From Mycobacteroides chelonae CCUG 47445 (GTDB taxonomy: Bacteria; Actinomycetota; Actinomycetes; Mycobacteriales; Mycobacteriaceae): a stretch of DNA of 64,000 nucleotides. This document shows, one piece after another, positions 42,195 to 59,735 of this stretch. Below the pieces are notes generated by a model. It ran no database searches. It had not been told where the DNA came from and worked only from the letters and a program-made list of their open reading frames with translations. The stretch lies in contig NZ_CP007220.1 in NCBI RefSeq assembly GCF_001632805.1, positions 2,976,001 through 3,040,000 on the forward strand, written 5' to 3'. Positions within the stretch are counted from its first letter, which is position 1, and every line of letters starts with the position of its first letter. The position numbers and the translations under genes are program-made.

Positions 42195-42322
42195 GGCAGA
42201 CAGCGATGTAACACCTAGCCGCACGCGGGTCCCCCACGTTCGCGGCGAACATCAAGCAGACAGCCGAATTCTCGATTTTGCATGCCCATGCTCGTCGACG
42301 AAGCAGCCAGGAAAGGGCGTCA

Positions 42323-43693
42323 GTGGCAGCCACGAAAGCAGCAGCTCCGGAAACCGAAGCGGCCAAGAAGGCACCGGTGAAGGCTGCCGTCAAGGCACCG
42401 GCCAAGAAGGCACCGGCCAAGAAGGCGCCCGCGAAGGCTGCGACCAAGGCCCCCGCCAAGAAGGCCGCGCCCGCGAAGAAGGCAGCACCCGCCAAGAAGG
42501 CCGCGGCCAAGGCAGTCGATCCCTCCCTCGAGCCGCAGGGCAGCCCCGAGGACGCCGACATCGAGCCCGGCGAGGATCTGGACCCCGACCTCGCCGACGA
42601 CGTGGACATCGAGGCGGACCTCGCCGAGGTTGCCGCCGATCCCGAGCCCGAGGCTGAGGCTGAGGCCGAAGGTGACGAGCCCTCCGAGAAGGACAAGGCC
42701 TCAGGCGATTTCGTCTGGGACGAGGAAGAATCCGAGGCGCTGCGCCAGGCCCGTAAGGACGCCGAGCTCACCGCTTCTGCGGACTCGGTGCGCGCCTACC
42801 TCAAGCAGATCGGCAAGGTGGCCCTGCTCAACGCCGAAGAGGAAGTTGAGCTGGCCAAGCGGATCGAGGCAGGCCTTTACGCCACCCAGATCGTCACCGA
42901 GCTGACCGAAAAGGGCGAGAAGCTTCCGGCCGCACAGCGCCGTGACATGTCCTGGATCTGCCGTGACGGCGATCGCGCCAAGAACCATCTGCTGGAGGCC
43001 AACCTGCGCCTGGTGGTTTCGCTGGCCAAGCGCTACACCGGTCGCGGCATGGCGTTCCTGGACCTCATCCAGGAAGGCAACCTGGGTCTGATCCGCGCGG
43101 TCGAGAAGTTCGACTACACAAAGGGTTACAAGTTCTCGACGTACGCGACCTGGTGGATCCGTCAGGCCATCACCCGCGCGATGGCCGACCAGGCCCGCAC
43201 CATCCGTATCCCGGTGCACATGGTCGAGGTCATCAACAAGCTCGGCCGCATTCAGCGTGAGCTGCTCCAGGACCTGGGCCGCGAGCCCACACCCGAAGAG
43301 CTGGCCAAGGAAATGGACATCACGCCCGAGAAGGTGCTGGAGATCCAGCAGTACGCGCGTGAGCCCATCTCGCTGGACCAGACCATCGGCGACGAGGGCG
43401 ACTCGCAGCTCGGCGACTTCATCGAGGATTCCGAAGCCGTGGTCGCGGTGGACGCGGTGTCCTTCACCCTGCTGCAGGATCAGCTGCAGTCGGTGCTGGA
43501 GACGCTTTCCGAACGTGAGGCCGGCGTGGTGCGTCTGCGGTTCGGTCTCACCGACGGCCAGCCGCGCACGCTCGACGAGATCGGTCAGGTGTACGGGGTG
43601 ACCCGTGAGCGCATCCGGCAGATTGAGTCCAAGACCATGTCGAAGCTGCGCCACCCGAGCCGTTCACAGGTGCTGCGCGACTACCTGGACTAG
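42323..43693 (+). CDS. sigA: principal sigma factor SigA
   Basis: 456 residues, housekeeping sigma-70. A lysine/alanine/proline-rich N-terminus with repeated [11 protein letters not shown] motifs (about residues 10-65) and an acidic stretch precede region 1.2 ([31 protein letters not shown]), region 2 ([57 protein letters not shown]) and region 4.2 ([41 protein letters not shown]). GTG 42323 with GAAAGGG upstream is preferred over the GTG/ATG further up. Recalled M. tuberculosis SigA is longer, the difference being in the N-terminal low-complexity part. Confidence 0.97.
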
Positions 43694-43858: not shown

Positions 43859-44824
43859 GTGATCAAACTTCTCATCTTTACCCTTGTGGGTCTTGGCGCC
43901 CAGATCGTCGACGGAACGCTCGGGATGGCGTTCGGGGTCACGGCGACGACCCTGCTGGTGTTCACCGGAGTCGGTGCTGCCCATGCGAGCGCCGCCGTAC
44001 ATTTCGCGGAGGTCGCCACCACCCTCGCGTCAGGTGTTTCGCACTGGCGGTTCGGCAATGTCGACAAGCGAGTCCTGCTGCGGCTGGGCGTACCCGGCGG
44101 CATCGGCGCGTTCCTCGGTGCGACCGTGCTGTCACGGTTGTCCACAGAATCCGCAGCCCCGATCACGGCGGGGATTCTGCTGGCCATCGGCGTCTACCTC
44201 ATCTACCGATTCAGCACGAACCCGCCGCGTGGCAACTACGCGCCGACGACGCCGTTCTCGGCGAGGTTCCTGGCCCCGTTGGGTCTGTTCGGCGGATTCA
44301 TCGACGCCTCCGGTGGCGGCGGCTGGGGGCCCATCACCACAAGCACCTTGCTCACTAGCGGGAAGGCCGCACCCCGCACGGTGATCGGCTCGGTGAGCGC
44401 ATCGGAATTCATCGTTGCCGTCTCGGCGAGCATCGGATTCCTGTTCGGCCTCGGCTCCGAGTTCTTCAACAACCTGATCGTGATCGCCGGGCTGGCCCTG
44501 GGCGGTGTGATCGCCGCGCCCATCGCGGCCTGGCTCGTCTCGCGCGTCAACTCGGTGGTGCTAGGCACCGCAGTCGGCGGCATCCTGGTGCTCACCAACG
44601 CCCGCACCCTGCTGCGGTACTTCGACACTCCCGACTCGGTGCGTGCACCCATTTACCTGGCGATTGTCATCGCCTGGGTGGCACTGGTCGCGTACACGTG
44701 GCGCAAGGCCACACTCACCCCTGCCGAAGCCTCGGGAGATCTCAGCGAGATCGCAGCGGGTGCCGAATCCCAAGGGGCGCTGGCGGACACGCCCGGCGAG
44801 GACATCGCTCCCGCACCCAAATAG
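43859..44824 (+). CDS. TSUP (TauE/SafE) membrane permease
   Basis: 321 residues with about eight hydrophobic helices in two homologous halves: LGAQIVDGTLGMAFGVTATTLL in the first and LFGGFIDASGGGGWGPITTSTLL in the second, the hallmark repeat of sulfite/anion exporters of the TSUP family. Acidic cytosolic tail. Substrate probably an oxyanion or sulfonate. GTG 43859 follows GCGAGGAG. The 165-base upstream gap holds an imperfect inverted repeat (ACAGGTTTCGA at 43756-43766 with TCGGAACCTGT at 43791-43801) and a TCGAAAC at 43813-43819 that may bind a regulator. No such gene lies beside sigA in M. tuberculosis (recalled). Confidence 0.85.
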   Translation: MIKLLIFTLVGLGAQIVDGTLGMAFGVTATTLLVFTGVGAAHASAAVHFAEVATTLASGVSHWRFGNVDKRVLLRLGVPGGIGAFLGATVLSRLSTESAAPITAGILLAIGVYLIYRFSTNPPRGNYAPTTPFSARFLAPLGLFGGFIDASGGGGWGPITTSTLLTSGKAAPRTVIGSVSASEFIVAVSASIGFLFGLGSEFFNNLIVIAGLALGGVIAAPIAAWLVSRVNSVVLGTAVGGILVLTNARTLLRYFDTPDSVRAPIYLAIVIAWVALVAYTWRKATLTPAEASGDLSEIAAGAESQGALADTPGEDIAPAPK

Positions 44825-44958
44825 CACAGCCCACAACCAGACCCGCACAGATCGAAGCGCGAATGGAGTAGCCCGCTACGCATGTCGAGCGGATGCCCAC
44901 TCGCACAGCATGGTGCCACCCCGGTGACAGTCATCGGGCTGGAATCGAAGGACACACC

Positions 44959-45897
44959 ATGACCGCAACACTGGAGAAGGAAGTGACCGCGCCGGCGCCC
45001 CTGGACGGCGAGGTCGCCGACCGGCGCAGCAAGTTTCGCAAGCTGACTGCCGAGACCGCCAAGGACCCGTACGCAGAACGAGCCTTCCTGGCATCGAAGC
45101 TGGCTGTGCTGCAATCACATCCGAAGCTTTCGGCGGCCACCCGCCGCGAGGCCGAGGAAACACTGGCCGAGGCTGCCGGAGTGGCGGACATCGCCGAACT
45201 AGCTGCGGGGATAACCCCACCTCCGGGCGGTGTCGGCTACGGCATGTTCTACACGAACAGCTTTCGTACCCGCTTCGCCCGCGGTACCTCGTTCTACTAC
45301 GAGATCGTCTGCCCGCACCAGCCCGGTGGAAACGTCGCCGACTACCTGTATCTGACCGCCACCAACCGGGCACAAAAGGGCGTCGAGGCGTTCGTTTCCT
45401 ATCACGCGCAGGACATCGCCCGCTTCAAGGTGTTCGACTGGGCACGGTCGGATCACTGGCAGACCGACATTCCGTTCGCGAACCTGACGGCGTACCTGCG
45501 CAGCACCTCGTCGCACGGCTGGGGTCTGCAGACCCTGCTCGTCTGGAATCAATCGTTCGAAATCGCACCGAACCGGTGGCGCAACGAGGTGCTGCTGCAC
45601 AACCGTGCGGCCAACCGTTGGGATCTGGTGTACCGCTTCGACTATCAATCCACGACCGCCGAACAGACCTCCGGCTGGGTGGGCAGCTGGGGACCGATCG
45701 TCGAGACGTTCCAGAACAGTTACACCAATACTCGCTGGCTGGGATTCCTCAACACGATGCTGGTGGGCCGCGATGCGGCCGGAACCTGGGGCCAATGGGC
45801 GCTGCTGCGCGCAGCCGACTCGACGATTCGCAATGACGGACATGGATTCTCGCCACTGTTCCTGGACCCGAATTACTCTTTCGTGGTGAAGAGTTGA
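44959..45897 (+). CDS. unrecognised protein with helical N-domain and beta-rich C-domain
   Basis: 312 residues, no signal peptide or membrane helix. Residues 15-75 form a charged helical module (VADRRSKFRKLTAETAKDPYAERAFLASKLAVLQSHPKLSA). Residues 90-312 are rich in beta-forming and aromatic residues with many Trp/Tyr (GYGMFYTNSFRTRFARGTSFYYEIVCP, SSHGWGLQTLLVWNQSFEIAPNRWRNEVLLHNR, GWVGSWGPIVETFQN) and one Cys; I recognise no family. ATG 44959 has GAAGGA upstream. The stop overlaps the reading region of the next gene by proximity (20 bases), and the next protein copies the helical module, so the pair is one unit. Function unknown. Confidence 0.7.
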   Translation: MTATLEKEVTAPAPLDGEVADRRSKFRKLTAETAKDPYAERAFLASKLAVLQSHPKLSAATRREAEETLAEAAGVADIAELAAGITPPPGGVGYGMFYTNSFRTRFARGTSFYYEIVCPHQPGGNVADYLYLTATNRAQKGVEAFVSYHAQDIARFKVFDWARSDHWQTDIPFANLTAYLRSTSSHGWGLQTLLVWNQSFEIAPNRWRNEVLLHNRAANRWDLVYRFDYQSTTAEQTSGWVGSWGPIVETFQNSYTNTRWLGFLNTMLVGRDAAGTWGQWALLRAADSTIRNDGHGFSPLFLDPNYSFVVKS

Positions 45898-45917
45898 TCG
45901 AGCAGGAGCAGCTGATC

Positions 45918-46127
45918 ATGAGTGATAACGGATCACCTCCCCCTCCCGGTACCGGGCCCATCGCCGACCGGCGGCAGGAGTTCGAAGAACTCAGCCGCCG
46001 GCACCGGGAAAGGGCGGATGAGCGCGCGTTCATCGAGCACAAGATCGAGATCGTCACGAGCGATCCCGATCTCAGCGCCGAGGAAAAGGCTGCCGCGATC
46101 GCGGAGCTGCGGCGCGCGCTGGACTGA
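45918..46127 (+). CDS. small protein related to the N-terminal module of the upstream protein
   Basis: 69 residues: MSDNGSPPPPGTGPIADRRQEFEELSRRHRERADERAFIEHKIEIVTSDPDLSAEEKAAAIAELRRALD, all of which after residue 15 is predicted helix. It aligns with one single-residue gap to the 312-aa protein (shared ADRR..F..L, ERAF...K, V..S.P.LSA, A..L..A). ATG 45918 with GGAG upstream decides the start; an in-frame TTG at 45894 overlaps the preceding stop. Followed by a hairpin at 46151-46184. Function unknown. Confidence 0.7.
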   Translation: MSDNGSPPPPGTGPIADRRQEFEELSRRHRERADERAFIEHKIEIVTSDPDLSAEEKAAAIAELRRALD

Positions 46128-46150
46128 CGGTCGCGACACCCCACGGCGCG

Positions 46151-46184
46151 GACCCACCGGCGACAACAACCTTGTCGGTGGGTC
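46151..46184 (+). terminator. hairpin after the small protein gene
   Basis: Left arm 46151-46166 (GACCCACCGGCGACAA) pairs with TTGTCGGTGGGTC at 46172-46184 with a two-base bulge and a CAACC loop. Twenty-three bases after the stop codon. Its right arm is also the beginning of the 32-bp direct repeat; the second copy near ogt lacks the left arm, so only this copy can form the hairpin. Confidence 0.6.
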
Positions 46185-46204
46185 CGGCCATACTGGGCAG
46201 CGTG
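46173..46204. repeat. 32-bp direct repeat, left copy
   Basis: Bases 46173-46204 are identical to 48752-48783 over 32 bases (start TGTCGGTGGGTCCGG, end GGGCAGCGTG). The flanks differ at both ends. Together they bound the low-GC island. Confidence 0.9.
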
Positions 46205-46256
46205 GACGCCAAGAGCCTTGCAGCATTACAACTCCCGAGCGTGACGATGAGAGCCA
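46202..46256 (+). pseudogene. remnant of an ogt 5' end
   Basis: After the left repeat, whose last three bases are the GTG of ogt in the right copy, 46223-46256 aligns with 48859 onward of intact ogt (27 of 35 aligned columns match by eye: GC.TT.CA.CT.CCCGAG..TGACGATG...GCCA), corresponding to the ALQLPENDDA part of the protein. The intervening stretch is 18 bases here and 75 in ogt, and a base is missing after the CT, so the frame is broken. Read as a decayed copy of the ogt start, left behind by the island. Confidence 0.5.
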
Positions 46257-46284
46257 GTCTCCGAACAACGCTGCCAAGCCTCGC

Positions 46285-47559
46285 TTAGTCCACGGCCGCT
46301 TCATCCGTCAAGTACGGTCTCCATACTCCGTGGCTCCCCAAGCTGCGCAGCAACGGCGAAACCAGCTCTCCAACAATGGCTAGTGGTCGGCACTGCAACT
46401 CAAGCAGCGAAACCGTCGTCACGCGATCGTAGTTCGGTGCGGTGTACCGCTGGCCTCTGCCGAGCCCAGACCGTTCGTACAAGGTGTAAGAGCCGACGTC
46501 ATTCAAACCCCACACGACAAGTGCAATTCTCCAGGAGCCATGAAAGTTGAATTCATCTGCAATCAAACGCAATAGGCGAACCAATAGATCGATATGACCG
46601 ATGATCATGGTCTCGAATGCGACAGTGATGCTCGGATTGGGCGACACAACAGTTCTTTCCAACATCAGTGCGATGGTCCCGGATTCATTGAAGACAAGCT
46701 CCGCAGCATCGCCCCCGCCAACGAACCGCTCTCCGCCGAACATGCCGACAGAGCAGGACACCCCTCCCGCGCGGCGGAGAAATGTGCTCGGACGACGAAG
46801 GGTCGGCGCGAAATTCTGAATTTCGGGGATTGCAGCTCCGGTTGTCAGCCTCAGAACCGTCTTTTCCCAGTTTTGGTCATCGCTCAAGGGGACTAGGAAC
46901 TCCGAGCGCGCGCCCACTGGCTCGGCCCGGACCATCATCAGATCCGAATCGGTTGTCGCGCCCGATGCCTCAGCAAGCATCGCGTTGCGCGCTTTGAGAA
47001 GGATGTCGTCCTGCTCAGCGACTCGCATTTCATGAAGTCGCACCACTTCAGCATTGGGTAATTGCCGGTTGGTCTTGTCCCCGCGACCGTAGTAGCGGCC
47101 ATCAGCCATGTGCGGGGCGCGAGGTGATGGCGGAACATGCACAACAAGATAACCACGCCCTGAATCTTCAGCCGATGGGATGCACGTCGCGGAGAGCATT
47201 ACCGGTTCATCCACTTTCAGGCGCGCGATCTGCTCTACACGTTCAGGTAGACCACTCAAGTCATTGGGGTGCAGTGACGGCGGCACTGTGTCCTCATCAA
47301 CGCCGATGAGGATCGTCCCACCGTCGAGCGCGAACGCTGCGATGTCCTTCGCGAGCCCCTTGTTGGCGCTGTCCCCCTTCGCAACTTCTCGTTTCAGATC
47401 GAGGTAATGCGTCTCCTCGAGAAGCCCGCTCTCGGCGGCACCCCGAATCTCTTCTTCCGTACGCAGGTTCCAGATATTACCGGGAGTCTCCACGTAACCA
47501 GTATTGCAGGGAGCCTGACTAACACTACTCGAACTGGCCAGTTCACTGTGGGCCTCCAA
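46285..47559 (-). CDS. AlbA_2 (Schlafen-type) putative DNA/RNA-binding protein
   Basis: 424 residues (402 if GTG 47491-47493 is used). The region LRTEEEIRGAAESGLLEETHYLDLKREVAKGDSANKGLAKDIAAFALDGGTILIGVDED is the AlbA_2/Schlafen divergent AAA_4-type domain, with the E-x-x-x-LDLK and G-G-x-ILIGV hallmarks. VVHVPPSPRAPHMADGRYYGRGDKTNRQL closes it. The C-terminal 250 residues are not recognised. Such proteins bind nucleic acid and occur in regulators and defence islands. The gene is on the opposite strand to its neighbours and lies with the DUF2971 gene 108 bases upstream in the island. Confidence 0.75.
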   Translation of the reverse strand: MEAHSELASSSSVSQAPCNTGYVETPGNIWNLRTEEEIRGAAESGLLEETHYLDLKREVAKGDSANKGLAKDIAAFALDGGTILIGVDEDTVPPSLHPNDLSGLPERVEQIARLKVDEPVMLSATCIPSAEDSGRGYLVVHVPPSPRAPHMADGRYYGRGDKTNRQLPNAEVVRLHEMRVAEQDDILLKARNAMLAEASGATTDSDLMMVRAEPVGARSEFLVPLSDDQNWEKTVLRLTTGAAIPEIQNFAPTLRRPSTFLRRAGGVSCSVGMFGGERFVGGGDAAELVFNESGTIALMLERTVVSPNPSITVAFETMIIGHIDLLVRLLRLIADEFNFHGSWRIALVVWGLNDVGSYTLYERSGLGRGQRYTAPNYDRVTTVSLLELQCRPLAIVGELVSPLLRSLGSHGVWRPYLTDEAAVD

Positions 47560-47667
47560 CTTCGCACATTGATTCTCAACATTAGCTCGATGAGAACTTT
47601 CATGCCATCCGACACCGAAGTATTACTCACGGATACCCAGGATCGAGACGAAGGGCGTTGGTGTGCT

Positions 47668-48708
47668 TCACCAATCACGGAACGGAATCGTGGAATTCCA
47701 GATATCGGGTGCAATTTCGCTATCAGGGGCCATACCATCACGCTTCTTAAAACGTACTGCTCGCGTGTAATCAAACAAAGAAAGAAGTTTGAGTTCTTTG
47801 TGGGCCGTGGGACCTATAGTTATCGACTCGATACAGCCATCCGGAATCGGGATGAAAATCTGCGGCACCATTCCGTATCGATGCGGGGTGAACGTATCTG
47901 GCTTGCCGTTGACTTCGACGATTCGGACTTCGCATTCTTCTCGGAAGCTCCCATCTTTCAGAAAGGCGGCGTGCACAGTCAGATCTTTGGATAGCATCCA
48001 CCGGCGTAGCTCGTCGTCACAGTCCGCAACGAACGGAAGTAATCGCTGGCGGAGGGATTTCGCATAGTTAACAACTTCATTTGCATATGCTTCATAGCGA
48101 TTTTCGTTTTCGTCAACATTTATGCGCTCATCACCATCCGCGGGGTAATGCACCCTCCGCATAACTCTGTTTTCTCCAAGACTTTCCAGGAGCATCTGCG
48201 TATTGAATCCGATGCAGTAACCCTCTCGCGCATATCCACGCCACTGACTTAGCTGGTCCCGCTTTTCTGATAGGCACGCGATATGGCAGTGCATATATCT
48301 TTCAGCCTCTTTGGTGGCGAGGCTAATTTCGTCCAACTCTGCTATTTCTGCCCTATTTGCAGATTTCGAGGCGTCGATGATGTCACTAACCATTGGAGGT
48401 TCTCCCTCCTCCAAAGCACGTTTCAGATTGTCGAGATTCTCCTGCGCAAGCTCAGCCTGACGACGCGCCACCGTCCCCCGGACAACTAAGACACCAAGCT
48501 TGAGTTCTGAAGTGTCGTTTAGGAAGCGAGAACCGGTGGCCCAGAGCTGTCCGCTCTCCCAAATACCGTGCAGACCAACTATGTCCGTGTAGTGGTACAC
48601 GGACTTCGGCAAGTCTGTATCAGACGTGACTTCTAAGGGGCGACTATTCTCTGACATCGGTGCGGATGCTATCTGCATGAGTGACTCCAGACACGACCTT
48701 GCCGTCAA
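47668..48708 (-). CDS. DUF2971 family protein
   Basis: 346 residues. Layout typical of DUF2971: YHYTDIVGLHGIWESGQLWATGSRFLNDTSELKLG at the start (YHYT and a F-LNDTSE motif), ACLSEKRDQLSQWRGYAREGYCIGFN in the middle (S-x-QWRGYG-type motif) and RYGMVPQIFIPIPDGCIESITIGPTAHKE toward the end. Function unknown; members occur in accessory regions. Start may be ATG 48655-48657 (MSENSRPLEV) rather than the first codon. GC and codon use are strikingly different from the core genes, which marks it as foreign. Confidence 0.8.
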   Translation of the reverse strand: MTARSCLESLMQIASAPMSENSRPLEVTSDTDLPKSVYHYTDIVGLHGIWESGQLWATGSRFLNDTSELKLGVLVVRGTVARRQAELAQENLDNLKRALEEGEPPMVSDIIDASKSANRAEIAELDEISLATKEAERYMHCHIACLSEKRDQLSQWRGYAREGYCIGFNTQMLLESLGENRVMRRVHYPADGDERINVDENENRYEAYANEVVNYAKSLRQRLLPFVADCDDELRRWMLSKDLTVHAAFLKDGSFREECEVRIVEVNGKPDTFTPHRYGMVPQIFIPIPDGCIESITIGPTAHKELKLLSLFDYTRAVRFKKRDGMAPDSEIAPDIWNSTIPFRDW

Positions 48709-48751
48709 CGAGCAGCCTGATTTGACTCGAGGTCATAACTCTAGGGCTTGG

Positions 48752-48783
48752 TGTCGGTGGGTCCGGCCATACTGGGCAGCGTG
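48752..48783. repeat. 32-bp direct repeat, right copy
   Basis: Identical to 46173-46204. Its last three bases (48781-48783) are the GTG start of ogt, so the repeat carries the gene's ribosome-binding region. Confidence 0.9.
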
Positions 48784-49314
48784 AGCACTGTCGGCCATTG
48801 CTTCTTCGACACCGCCATTGGCGCCTGCGCCATCGCGTGGAGCGACAACGGCATCGTCGCGTTGCAGCTGCCCGAGAATGACGATGCGGCCACCCTGGCC
48901 AGGATCCGGCGTCCCCCGGGGAGCGAACTTACGCCGCCGCCCTTCGTGGCCGAGGCGATCGACGGCCTGACGCGAGTCCTTGACGGTGAGGACGACGACC
49001 TGCAGTGGGTTCAACTGGACCTTGACGGCATCACCGATTTCGATCGCGAGGTCTACGCGGTGACAAGGGCCATCGGCCCCGGCTCGACCCGCAGCTACGG
49101 TGAGGTGGCGGCAGCCGTCGGTGCACCTGGCGCAGCACAGGCCGTCGGACAGTCATTGGGCCGCAATCCGATTCCGTTACTTGTCCCCTGCCATCGTGTG
49201 CTCGCCGCCGATCACAGCCTGCATGGCTTCTCCGCCTACGGCGGTGTCGTCACCAAGCGCGAACTACTCAGACTCGAACACGCCCCGGGTTTCGACGACC
49301 CGACACTGTTCTGA
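48781..49314 (+). CDS. ogt: methylated-DNA-[protein]-cysteine S-methyltransferase
   Basis: 177 residues. Suicide enzyme that takes the alkyl group off O6-alkylguanine. N-terminal ribonuclease-H-like half (CFFDTAIGACAIAWSDNGIVALQLPENDD), helix-turn-helix with YGEVAAAVGAPGAAQAVGQSLGRNPIPLLVPCHRV (active Cys in PCHRV) and HGFSAYGGVVTKRELLRLE. GTG 48781 is the start; the island ends immediately before it and supplies or repeats its leader. Confidence 0.92.
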   Translation: MSTVGHCFFDTAIGACAIAWSDNGIVALQLPENDDAATLARIRRPPGSELTPPPFVAEAIDGLTRVLDGEDDDLQWVQLDLDGITDFDREVYAVTRAIGPGSTRSYGEVAAAVGAPGAAQAVGQSLGRNPIPLLVPCHRVLAADHSLHGFSAYGGVVTKRELLRLEHAPGFDDPTLF

Positions 49315-49382
49315 CGCAAAAGCCACCCTGCGGGTCTACGCTCTAGCGCATCAAGCTCCAGCCAAACGCATCGGGAGACCTC

Positions 49383-49865
49383 ATGACCGGTTTGTATGTA
49401 GCTGCACTTCTCATCGGTATCGTCGCGGGCCTGCGCGCGATGACGCCACTTGCCGTTTTGAGCTGGGCAGCATTCGCCAAATGTCTTCTGGTGGAGGGTA
49501 CCTGGGCATCGTTCTTGGCGAGCCTGATCGTCGCCATCATCGCCACGGTGCTGGCCGTCGGCGAGATCGTCAACGACAAGCTGCCCAAGACGCCGAGCCG
49601 CAAGGCGCCGCCCGCGTTCGCGGCACGGGTGGTGCTGGGCGCCTTCTACGGGGCGGTCCTCGGCACCCTGGCGGGCGGCACCTCTCCCGGACTCATCATC
49701 GGTCTGGTGCTCGGCGCCATCGGTGCGGTGGTCGGCACCCTGGGCGGGGCCTGGGCTCGGGGCAAGCTGGCCGAAGCCTTCGGTAAGGACCTGCCCGCCG
49801 CCCTGACCGAGGATGCGATCACGGTTGCGGCGGCCGTGGCGATCACCCTGGTGCTCGCCACGTGA
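49383..49865 (+). CDS. DUF4126 membrane protein
   Basis: 160 residues with four to five hydrophobic helices and the DUF4126 look: LYVAALLIGIVAGLRAMTPLAVLSW, VNDKLPKTPSRKAPPAFAARVVLGAFYGAVLG, GLVLGAIGAVVGTLGGAWAR. Unknown function. Its stop overlaps the start of the flavin oxidoreductase (GTGA), so the two share an operon. Confidence 0.78.
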   Translation: MTGLYVAALLIGIVAGLRAMTPLAVLSWAAFAKCLLVEGTWASFLASLIVAIIATVLAVGEIVNDKLPKTPSRKAPPAFAARVVLGAFYGAVLGTLAGGTSPGLIIGLVLGAIGAVVGTLGGAWARGKLAEAFGKDLPAALTEDAITVAAAVAITLVLAT

Positions 49866-51238
49866 GCACACATTTTGACGCCGTCGTCGTGGGCGCCGGC
49901 CAGGCCGGCCCGTCCTTGGCCGCCCGCCTACGCAGCGCGGGGATGACGGTGGCGATCGTGGAACGCCATCTATTCGGCGGCACCTGCGTGAACACCGGCT
50001 GTCGCCCCACCAAGGCGCTCGTCGCCAGCGCGCATGCCGCCCATATGGCACGCGATGCCGCGCGGTGGGGCGTGGTCGTCGATGGCGCGGTGAGCATGGA
50101 CATGGCCCGCGTGCGCGAACGCAAGGATTCGGTGATCCTGCCGTCCCGCAATGGCGGTGAGAAGTGGCTCAAGGATCTGGGCTGCACTATCTACCACGAG
50201 CACGCACGCTTCATCTCCCCCACCGAGCTCGCCGTCGGCGACGAAATCATCTCCGCCGACAAGGTGTTTCTGAATGTCGGCGGCCGGGCGGTCGTGCCGG
50301 ACTGGCCCGGTGTCGACGATGTTCCGCTGTTGACCAACAGCTCACTCATCGAATACGACGGCATCCCCGAACATCTCGTCGTCATTGGCGGCAGCTATGT
50401 CGGGCTGGAATTCGCGCAGATCTATCGCCGGTTCGGCAGCCAGGTCACCGTGGTGCACCGCGGGCCACGGCTCGTGGAACGTGAAGACCCCGACGCCTCG
50501 GCGATCATCCAGGAAGTCCTGGAGCGTGAGGGAATCTCCTTCCGGCTCAACGCCTCCTGTATCAGCCTGTCCCGCACGAACAATGGAGTCGGGGTCGGCG
50601 TCGACTGCACACAGGGCGCGCCCGAAGTGGTCGGCTCTCATGTGCTTGTCGCGGTCGGGCGCCGGCCCAACACCGACGACTTGGGTCTGGAGAACGCCGG
50701 CGTCATCACCGACGATCGTGGATACATCACGGTCGACGACCAGCTGCGCACCAACGTGCCGGGCATCTGGGCCCTGGGCGACTGCAACGGCCGCGGGGCG
50801 TTCACACACACCTCATACAACGACTTCGAGATCGTGGCCGCGAATCTGCTCGACGACGATCCGCGACGGGTCACCGACAGACTGCCCTGCTATGCCCTGT
50901 ACACCGATCCGCCGCTGGGGCGCGTCGGCATGACCGAGACGCAGGCGCGCACTTCGGGACACTCCGTACTCGTCGGCCGCAAGCCGATGAGTCAGGTCGG
51001 CCGCGCCCTCGAAAAGGGCGAAACCGACGGCTATATGCAGGTTTTGGTCGATGCCGACACCGATCTCATCCTGGGCGCAACCATCCTCGGGGTGGGCGGC
51101 GACGAGGTGGTGCACTGCCTGCTCGACACCATGCAATACGGGGTGCCCGCACGACAACTTCAGCGCACCGTGCACATCCATCCCACGGTGGCGGAGTTCT
51201 TGCCGACGATTCTGGGTGATCTCCAACCGCTCGCTTGA
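49862..51238 (+). CDS. FAD-dependent pyridine nucleotide-disulfide oxidoreductase
   Basis: 458 residues of the class-I disulfide oxidoreductase family. FAD-binding VVVGAGQAGPSLAARL (residues 8-23), redox-active GGTCVNTGCRPTK (Cys42 and Cys47), NAD(P)-binding VVIGGSYVGLEFAQIYRRFG, and a C-terminal dimer domain with VHIHPTVAEFLPT supplying the catalytic His. Close in layout to mercuric reductase but without a metal-binding N-terminal domain or a C-terminal Cys pair, so a soluble disulfide or quinone reductase is more likely than MerA; no mer genes are near. GTG 49862 is the start. Confidence 0.85.
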   Translation: MSTHFDAVVVGAGQAGPSLAARLRSAGMTVAIVERHLFGGTCVNTGCRPTKALVASAHAAHMARDAARWGVVVDGAVSMDMARVRERKDSVILPSRNGGEKWLKDLGCTIYHEHARFISPTELAVGDEIISADKVFLNVGGRAVVPDWPGVDDVPLLTNSSLIEYDGIPEHLVVIGGSYVGLEFAQIYRRFGSQVTVVHRGPRLVEREDPDASAIIQEVLEREGISFRLNASCISLSRTNNGVGVGVDCTQGAPEVVGSHVLVAVGRRPNTDDLGLENAGVITDDRGYITVDDQLRTNVPGIWALGDCNGRGAFTHTSYNDFEIVAANLLDDDPRRVTDRLPCYALYTDPPLGRVGMTETQARTSGHSVLVGRKPMSQVGRALEKGETDGYMQVLVDADTDLILGATILGVGGDEVVHCLLDTMQYGVPARQLQRTVHIHPTVAEFLPTILGDLQPLA

Positions 51239-58763: not shown

Positions 58764-59735
58764 ATGGCAAACGCCACGACCCGTCCGGCCCGTACTACTG
58801 AGTCCGACGATCTGGACACCCAAAGTCCAGCCGCCGACCTCGTGCGGGTGTATTTGAACGGCATCGGCAAGACTGCTCTGCTCACGGCGGAGGACGAAGT
58901 CGAGCTGGCAAAACGGATCGAGGCGGGGCTGTACGCCCAGCACCTTCTGGACACCAAGAAACGCCTCGGCGAGGCCCGCAAGAAGGATCTGGCAGCCATC
59001 GTGCGGGAAGGTAGCGCCGCGCGCAGCCACCTGCTGGAGGCCAACCTGCGGCTGGTGGTGTCGCTGGCCAAGCGCTACACCGGACGCGGAATGCCGCTGC
59101 TGGACCTCATCCAGGAGGGCAACCTGGGCTTGATCCGCGCTATGGAGAAGTTCGACTACGCCAAGGGGTTCAAGTTCTCGACCTACGCCACCTGGTGGAT
59201 CCGTCAGGCCATCACCCGCGGCATGGCCGATCAGAGCCGCACCATCCGCCTGCCAGTGCACCTGGTGGAGCAGGTGAACAAGCTGGCTCGCATCAAGCGT
59301 GAGCTGCACCAGCGGCTTGGCCGCGAGGCCAGCGACGAGGAACTGGCCGAGGAGTCCGGCATTCCCGTGGAGAAGATCGGGGATCTGCTGGACCACAGCC
59401 GGGATCCGGTAAGCCTGGACATGCCGGTTGGTACCGACGAAGAAGCGCCGCTTGGCGACTTTATCGAGGACACCGAGGCCATGTCGGCGGAGAACGCCGT
59501 CATCGCCGAGCTACTGCACTCGGACGTGCGCAGCGTGCTGGCCACTCTCGACGAGCGTGAGCAGCAGGTCATCCGGCTTCGGTACGGACTCGATGACGGA
59601 CAGGCCCGCACACTCGACCAGATCGGCAAGCTGTTCGGACTGTCTCGCGAGCGGGTGCGTCAGATCGAGCGTGAAGTCATGACGAAGCTGCGCCACGGCG
59701 ACCGCGCAGAACGCCTGCGTTCGTACGCGAGCTAG
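58764..59735 (+). CDS. sigB: principal-like sigma factor SigB
   Basis: 323 residues, group-2 sigma factor for stress and slow growth. Region 1.2 ([34 protein letters not shown]), region 2 ([57 protein letters not shown]) and region 4.2 ([41 protein letters not shown]) complete; it lacks SigA's long N-terminus. Strong AGGAGG site. Followed by a strong terminator and ideR. Confidence 0.97.

Follow-up and report, generated by a model that had tools for sequence, protein, structure and literature searches.

How did two leftward genes in an island of low G+C content come to lie between two identical copies of the start region of ogt, the gene for a methylated-DNA--protein-cysteine methyltransferase, in Mycobacteroides chelonae CCUG 47445? 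The locus is part of a window of 64 kb, positions 2976001-3040000 of the single-contig genome (NZ_CP007220.1; 5,029,817 bases), and the positions given below are those of this window. An initial annotation had proposed an island that inserted at the ogt start and regenerated the gene. The island, which carries a Schlafen/AlbA_2-domain (“SLFN”) gene together with a DUF2971 gene, was acquired at the start of ogt in the lineage of the window. The gain left an exact 32-bp duplication, native flanks, and an intact ogt, and no recombinase is recognizable inside the island. A rather probable explanation is an integrase-less element flanked by attL- and attR-like sites, similar to a cis-mobilizable element (CIME), inserted by site-specific recombination through a tyrosine-type integrase that was lost or acted in trans.

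The repeat and the island between its copies

The sequences 46173-46204 and 48752-48783 on the forward strand are identical at 32 of 32 bases. This pair, found already in the initial annotation, is the longest exact repeat of the window, compared to 15-19 nt in 20 first-order Markov resamples. The left, attL-like core contains the hexamer CATACT (46189-46194) and a GTG (46202-46204); the right, attR-like core contains CATACT (48768-48773) and ends, as annotated, with the GTG start codon of ogt (48781-48783). A 20-base piece of the core, with up to 3 mismatches allowed, matched only these two copies in the own genome, and a reversed control gave 3 matches. Between the copies is the island (46205-48751, 2,547 bp), with a G+C content of 54.7% versus 64.7% elsewhere in the window; of 1,230 stretches of island length, the one starting at 46201 had the lowest G+C content, which agreed with the description as a low-G+C island. 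The left inner end of the island (46205-46256, forward strand) includes a stretch suggestive of the 5' part of ogt, which is treated below. The right inner end (48709-48751, forward strand) is now positioned upstream of the ogt core and is absent before ogt in the aligned relatives.

Empty sites in relatives

A test for insertion, set beforehand, looked in relatives for one ogt preceded by one core, or a diverged form of it, without an island. Relatives came from two collections. A search with ogt in a genome collection kept the best 80 of 339 relatives, which included 6 Mycobacteroides or close Mycobacterium records, and the 74 non-Mycobacteroides loci among these 80 were left out of the empty-site alignment. 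In the second collection, 396 genomes of the genus including the own genome, only 10 had a full-length DNA match to ogt, again including the own genome. Five relatives were common to both collections, resulting in ten distinct ones (loci L014, L015, L016, L017, L018, L019, L094, L097, L100, and L101). Among the 40 closest-listed relatives plus the own genome, a full-length match to ogt DNA was present in the own genome only. Of the ogt protein relatives beyond Mycobacteroides, most among the matches listed were from Nocardia and Rhodococcus.

In all ten relatives, a single core, diverged in some of them, directly precedes ogt, and the island is missing. The upstream operon end is collinear over about 1.2 kb in seven of them; the upstream match comprises only the last 42 bases in L015 and is missing in L100 and L101. 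The core is identical in L014, L017, and L094 (genome G104), so that both copies in the window equal the likely ancestral sequence, and it has 1 to 7 changes in L016, L018, L019, and L100. An ungapped scan found no core in L015, L097, and L101; a single base is deleted in the sequences of L015 and L097, and that of L101 is more strongly diverged. No second core copy was found in the ten relatives within the loci compared, and the island genes had no DNA match in the ten ogt loci.

With all ten relatives empty, the simple reading is that the island was gained in the lineage of the window. The reverse, an ancestral arrangement with independent loss of the two genes in the relatives, is conceivable as such and has nothing else in its favor. 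It is disfavored and hardly credible, considering that the core is placed directly before ogt in 10 of 10 relatives, that the G+C content of the island is the lowest in the window, and that the best other matches in the 396 genus genomes (own included) reached 46% identity for the DUF2971 protein and, for the SLFN protein, 53% over most of its length and up to 66% in fragments.

Native flanks, ogt, and its putative promoter

The upstream operon is followed by a terminator-like hairpin (46149-46186, forward strand) with a 15-bp stem formed by the arms 46149-46163 and 46172-46186. Its predicted RNA fold of −39.1 kcal/mol has a z score of −4.8, and none of 200 shuffles was as good. As noted initially, the right arm of the hairpin runs into the left core, and the right core is without such a hairpin (z = 0.06). 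The hairpin folds also in G104 (z = −3.4) and in L016 (z = −3.1), where both arms change in step. It is not followed by a T run, and a terminator scan found no terminator. When the flanks of the window were joined at the core, they aligned with the relatives except for an additional base immediately left of the core. This T at 46172, absent in the aligned relatives sharing the flank, is possibly a junction scar. Both outer flanks are native, the hairpin on the left side and ogt on the right.

The ogt gene (48781-49314, forward strand) is intact (PF01035, E = 2.4e-27; TIGR00589 above the cutoff), with a DNA identity of 94% to that of G104. The identity to G104 is 99% for its first approximately 88 bases, compared to 91-98% in the flank upstream and 91-96% in the ogt bins that follow, so that there is no sign of a replacement of the 5' end. 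The suggestion that the left flank is ancestral was borne out; concerning the 5' end of ogt, which had been thought duplicated or replaced, duplication is correct for the promoter region and start codon, and replacement is not supported. As judged by these comparisons, ogt looks native and only its promoter region plus start codon look duplicated.

All ten relatives possess a hexamer of the form NATACT with a potential start codon 6 or 7 bases behind it. For M. tuberculosis, the parts of PMC3898074 consulted report a TANNNT −10 motif centered 7-12 bp upstream of 73% of the primary start sites and leaderless transcripts for 26% of the genes with a primary start. This suggests that each core, with its −10-like hexamer and GTG, may contain a leaderless promoter that was duplicated intact. 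Such a promoter and start codon inside the core would explain why ogt survived the insertion.

A stretch similar to ogt behind the left core

The initial annotation had also seen a decayed, frame-broken copy of the ogt start behind the left core. The stretch 46207-46256 aligns in the same order to about bases 60-109 of ogt. Against the own ogt of the window, a score as high was reached by 4 of 2,000 shuffles. The respective numbers for the relatives tried were 1 (L094), 0 (L095), 136 (L096), 81 (L097), 1 (L098), 202 (L099), 0 (L100), 1,791 (L101), 119 (L016), and 38 (L019). The best alignment was that with L100, with a score of 38, a selected score since L100 was the best of these relatives; the highest of 4,472 background scores, which came from overlapping stretches and numbered 2,236 for each strand, were three of 36. 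Against ogt of the window or of L095, 2 of 1,118 other 100-base stretches of the window reached the best score of the stretch. Translated frames scored apart gave no significant similarity: scores as good were obtained with 381 of 3,000 shuffles and with 353 of 2,795 stretches of the window. The resemblance to ogt is regarded as suggestive only. If the stretch is real ogt, it is too diverged for decay after the duplication because the adjacent core has 0 changes in 32 positions; it would then be an eroded piece of ogt that the element brought with it.

Another conceivable origin of the island is the capture of an incoming ogt-start segment from a related species together with the two genes, by homologous or homology-facilitated recombination that left a partial duplication. 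The ogt-like stretch, which keeps the order of ogt, would be the donor ogt in this case, and the repeat does sit in a region conserved among relatives. However, the identity of the two copies extends over exactly 32 bases and ends abruptly, whereas a tract of a relative's ogt should show 80-94% identity throughout, and the stretch resembling ogt, besides being short, lacks significance when its frames are scored apart. Capture is unlikely on balance, albeit worth keeping in mind.

The two genes of the island

The SLFN gene (46285-47559, reverse strand) has a longest open reading frame (ORF) of 424 amino acids with a PF04326 match (E = 1.4e-10); the 402-amino-acid database cluster P0121 places its start near 47493. 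Homologues covering 90% of the length are about 53% identical, and 4 of 7 Foldseek matches at E ≤ 0.001 were Schlafen chains, with low TM-scores. The DUF2971 gene (47668-48708, reverse strand) has a longest ORF of 346 amino acids and a start near 48657 according to the 329-amino-acid cluster P0001. On the basis of its model, the product may resemble ADP-ribosyltransferases, and it matches the PADLOC candidate defense family PDC-S31; the SLFN protein matched no PADLOC family. NCBIfam names neither protein, and Pfam found nothing in five further ORFs of at least 92 amino acids, four inside the island and one across its left end. The PHROG matches of the two proteins, one of unknown function (E = 1.3e-20) and one labeled helicase (E = 5.8e-8), are neither structural nor integrase families. 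A sequence search for solved structures returned none for either protein at E ≤ 0.01, and five unrelated-looking chains for the DUF2971 protein at E ≤ 10.

Among the loci compared, most of them with 1.5-kb flanks, SLFN and DUF2971 genes are side by side in this genome only. Searches with tblastn found SLFN in 19 and DUF2971 in 142 plasmid records, neither in phages, and 31 DUF2971 and 4 SLFN relatives, all distant, in viral contigs. In two mycobacterial plasmids, NZ_CP085946.1 (L224) and NZ_CP043475.1 (L225), a recombinase gene, a hypothetical gene, and an SLFN gene occur in the same order. No paper pairing DUF2971 with schlafen or anti-phage was found in a search of main texts. The cargo may serve phage defense.

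Search for an integrase, a partner element, or a second insertion

As stated in the initial annotation, no integrase or transposase family was recognized in the island ORFs by Pfam, and the island has no terminal inverted repeats. Of the own genome, 8 sequences matched PF00589, all outside the window and none tied to the ogt site. Seven of these 8 were used as integrase seeds to search 89 ogt loci (84 distinct places) with upstream flanks of 1.5-9 kb. The seeds found one another as a positive control, and no integrase homologue near ogt was found in the 89 loci at E = 1e-4. Exact and degenerate core patterns had 0 matches in viral contigs, and none of 10 candidate stretches there was ogt. The phages contained no match to the island or to the core plus left end. 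In plasmids, the core plus left end gave one match in Polaromonas (E = 0.03), which was rejected as chance-like, and the island DNA matched 12 records, with only part of the SLFN gene matched among the matches listed. Other cargo between such repeats at ogt starts, for which a search had been proposed initially, occurred in none of the ten relatives.

Around other SLFN or DUF2971 genes, direct repeats were seen in L146 (a pair of 19 nt) and in L167 and L170 (a 24-nt pair that is part of a terminator). Plasmid-like contigs (L166, L167, and L170; G406:C246 and G166:C5) share a terminator hairpin in the vicinity of SLFN genes. On G166:C5, an SLFN fragment, itself present twice on the contig, is enclosed by two direct copies of a 24-nt part of this hairpin at a distance of 1,175 nt. 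The terminator was discarded as an att-like repeat: each of 21 plasmid records, of which 20 are mycobacterial, contains a single copy, so that it seems to belong to the plasmid backbone.

Within the window, a scan with a 16-base seed found only two further direct repeats of at least 24 nt, a three-copy 24-nt repeat (42449-42508) and a 300-nt pair (42985-43284 and 59027-59326) with 85% identity. The ORF 42278-43693, which holds the first 300-nt copy, presumably encodes a primary sigma factor, judged by eye, and the pair probably represents two paralogues.

How the island may have reached the ogt start

An exact duplication of a unique target with one copy at each end would also result from a transposition-like insertion with an unusually long target-site duplication of 32 bp. 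The island has neither terminal inverted repeats nor, in its scanned ORFs, a transposase family, and known transposons rarely produce target duplications as long as this. This origin is accordingly quite improbable.

Site-specific recombination is the preferred explanation. An element of 2.5 kb with the SLFN and DUF2971 genes would have recombined within the 32-bp sequence at the ogt start, a target that reaches from the hairpin arm through the likely leaderless promoter to the GTG of ogt. The insertion would have left a full core at each end, so that ogt kept a −10-like hexamer and its start codon. The enzyme may have been a tyrosine-type integrase, provided by another element or deleted since then, which would make the island a CIME-like remnant. 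Counted in favor were the empty sites, the core identical in three relatives, the flanks that align when joined at the core, the hexamer and potential start codon in all ten relatives, the low G+C content, the 8 PF00589 matches in the genome, and the SLFN relatives on mycobacterial plasmids. An exact core of 32 bp on a start codon is also compatible with recombination by a tyrosine integrase, for which the M. abscessus prophage sites attB-12 and attB-13 are a precedent. The length of the core agrees with 25-76 bp at tRNA sites, as given in the available parts of PMC8092301.

Several points weigh against this explanation. According to the same parts of PMC8092301, cores at non-tRNA sites typically have 3-25 bp, so that 32 bp is longer. 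The two 60-base inner ends of the island share only one direct match of 6 bases and no exact inverted match of at least 6 bases. Searches of phages, plasmids, viral contigs, and the 396 genomes yielded no integrase, attP, or second insertion that could be tied to the ogt site, and at E = 1e-2, the only integrase match among the ogt loci was a weak one in L053 (E = 1.5e-4), at a distance of 8 kb from ogt. The hexamer CATACT deviates from TANNNT in its missing first T, and no promoter was predicted at 46000-49000 by a scan for the sigma-70 consensus, so that a leaderless ogt promoter in the core can only be inferred. Recent mobility, finally, is unproven without sister strains.

The site and the element appear to be new, and the kind of genomic island is known. 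Strict literature searches of main texts, supplements excluded, found no published description of the ogt-start site and its element, and the word ogt is absent from the main texts of PMC8092301 and PMC10654092. The locus adds a well-bounded insertion site in a protein gene to the abscessus-chelonae group. It also suggests how an insertion may land on a likely leaderless promoter without harm to the gene, because a single core of 32 bp has room for both the promoter and the start codon. The predicted ADP-ribosyltransferase-like and Schlafen-like genes on one mobile-looking unit are a candidate phage defense pair. That a whole class of such small integrase-less cargo units exists, with a leaderless promoter plus start codon as the core, so that insertion copies the promoter, the host gene stays expressed, and integrases of other elements swap defense genes, is a speculative and rather improbable extension.

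Comparison with known systems

A CIME is an element without integration and transfer genes that has kept attL and attR (PMC5704250, as far as available). The island shares with it the att-like direct repeats at both ends, one copy of which is present in the empty site, and the absence of recognized integration or transfer genes, with Pfam reporting only AlbA_2 and DUF2971. It differs in having two genes only and no sister integrative and conjugative or integrative and mobilizable element at ogt in the ten relatives, so that descent by decay is unproven. The island lacks the terminal inverted repeats and a recognized transposase that would mark an insertion sequence or transposon. The cargo has its counterparts in PDC-S31 for the DUF2971 protein and in Schlafen/AlbA_2 proteins for the other, which possesses an AlbA_2 domain.

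Islands that target tRNA genes, to which the locus had been likened initially, follow the same logic in that the duplicated core leaves the target gene whole; here, however, the target is the promoter and start of a protein gene. ARAGORN found 0 tRNA or transfer-messenger RNA (tmRNA) genes at 44000-51000, and Rfam had 0 matches at 45800-49400. Prophages of M. abscessus are a closer parallel within the same clade. In the parts of the two studies consulted, 7 of 23 tyrosine-integrase sites have no overlap with tRNA or tmRNA genes (PMC10654092), and the cores of the tyrosine-integrase prophage sites attB-12 and attB-13 cover the ribosome-binding site and start codon (PMC8092301). Together with attB-29, which is used by a serine integrase (PMC10654092), they share with the ogt site a core or insertion that overlaps the translation start of a protein gene. 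These prophages are whole, possess their own integrase, and are inserted at genes other than ogt, in contrast to the island without recognized integrase or phage structural genes.
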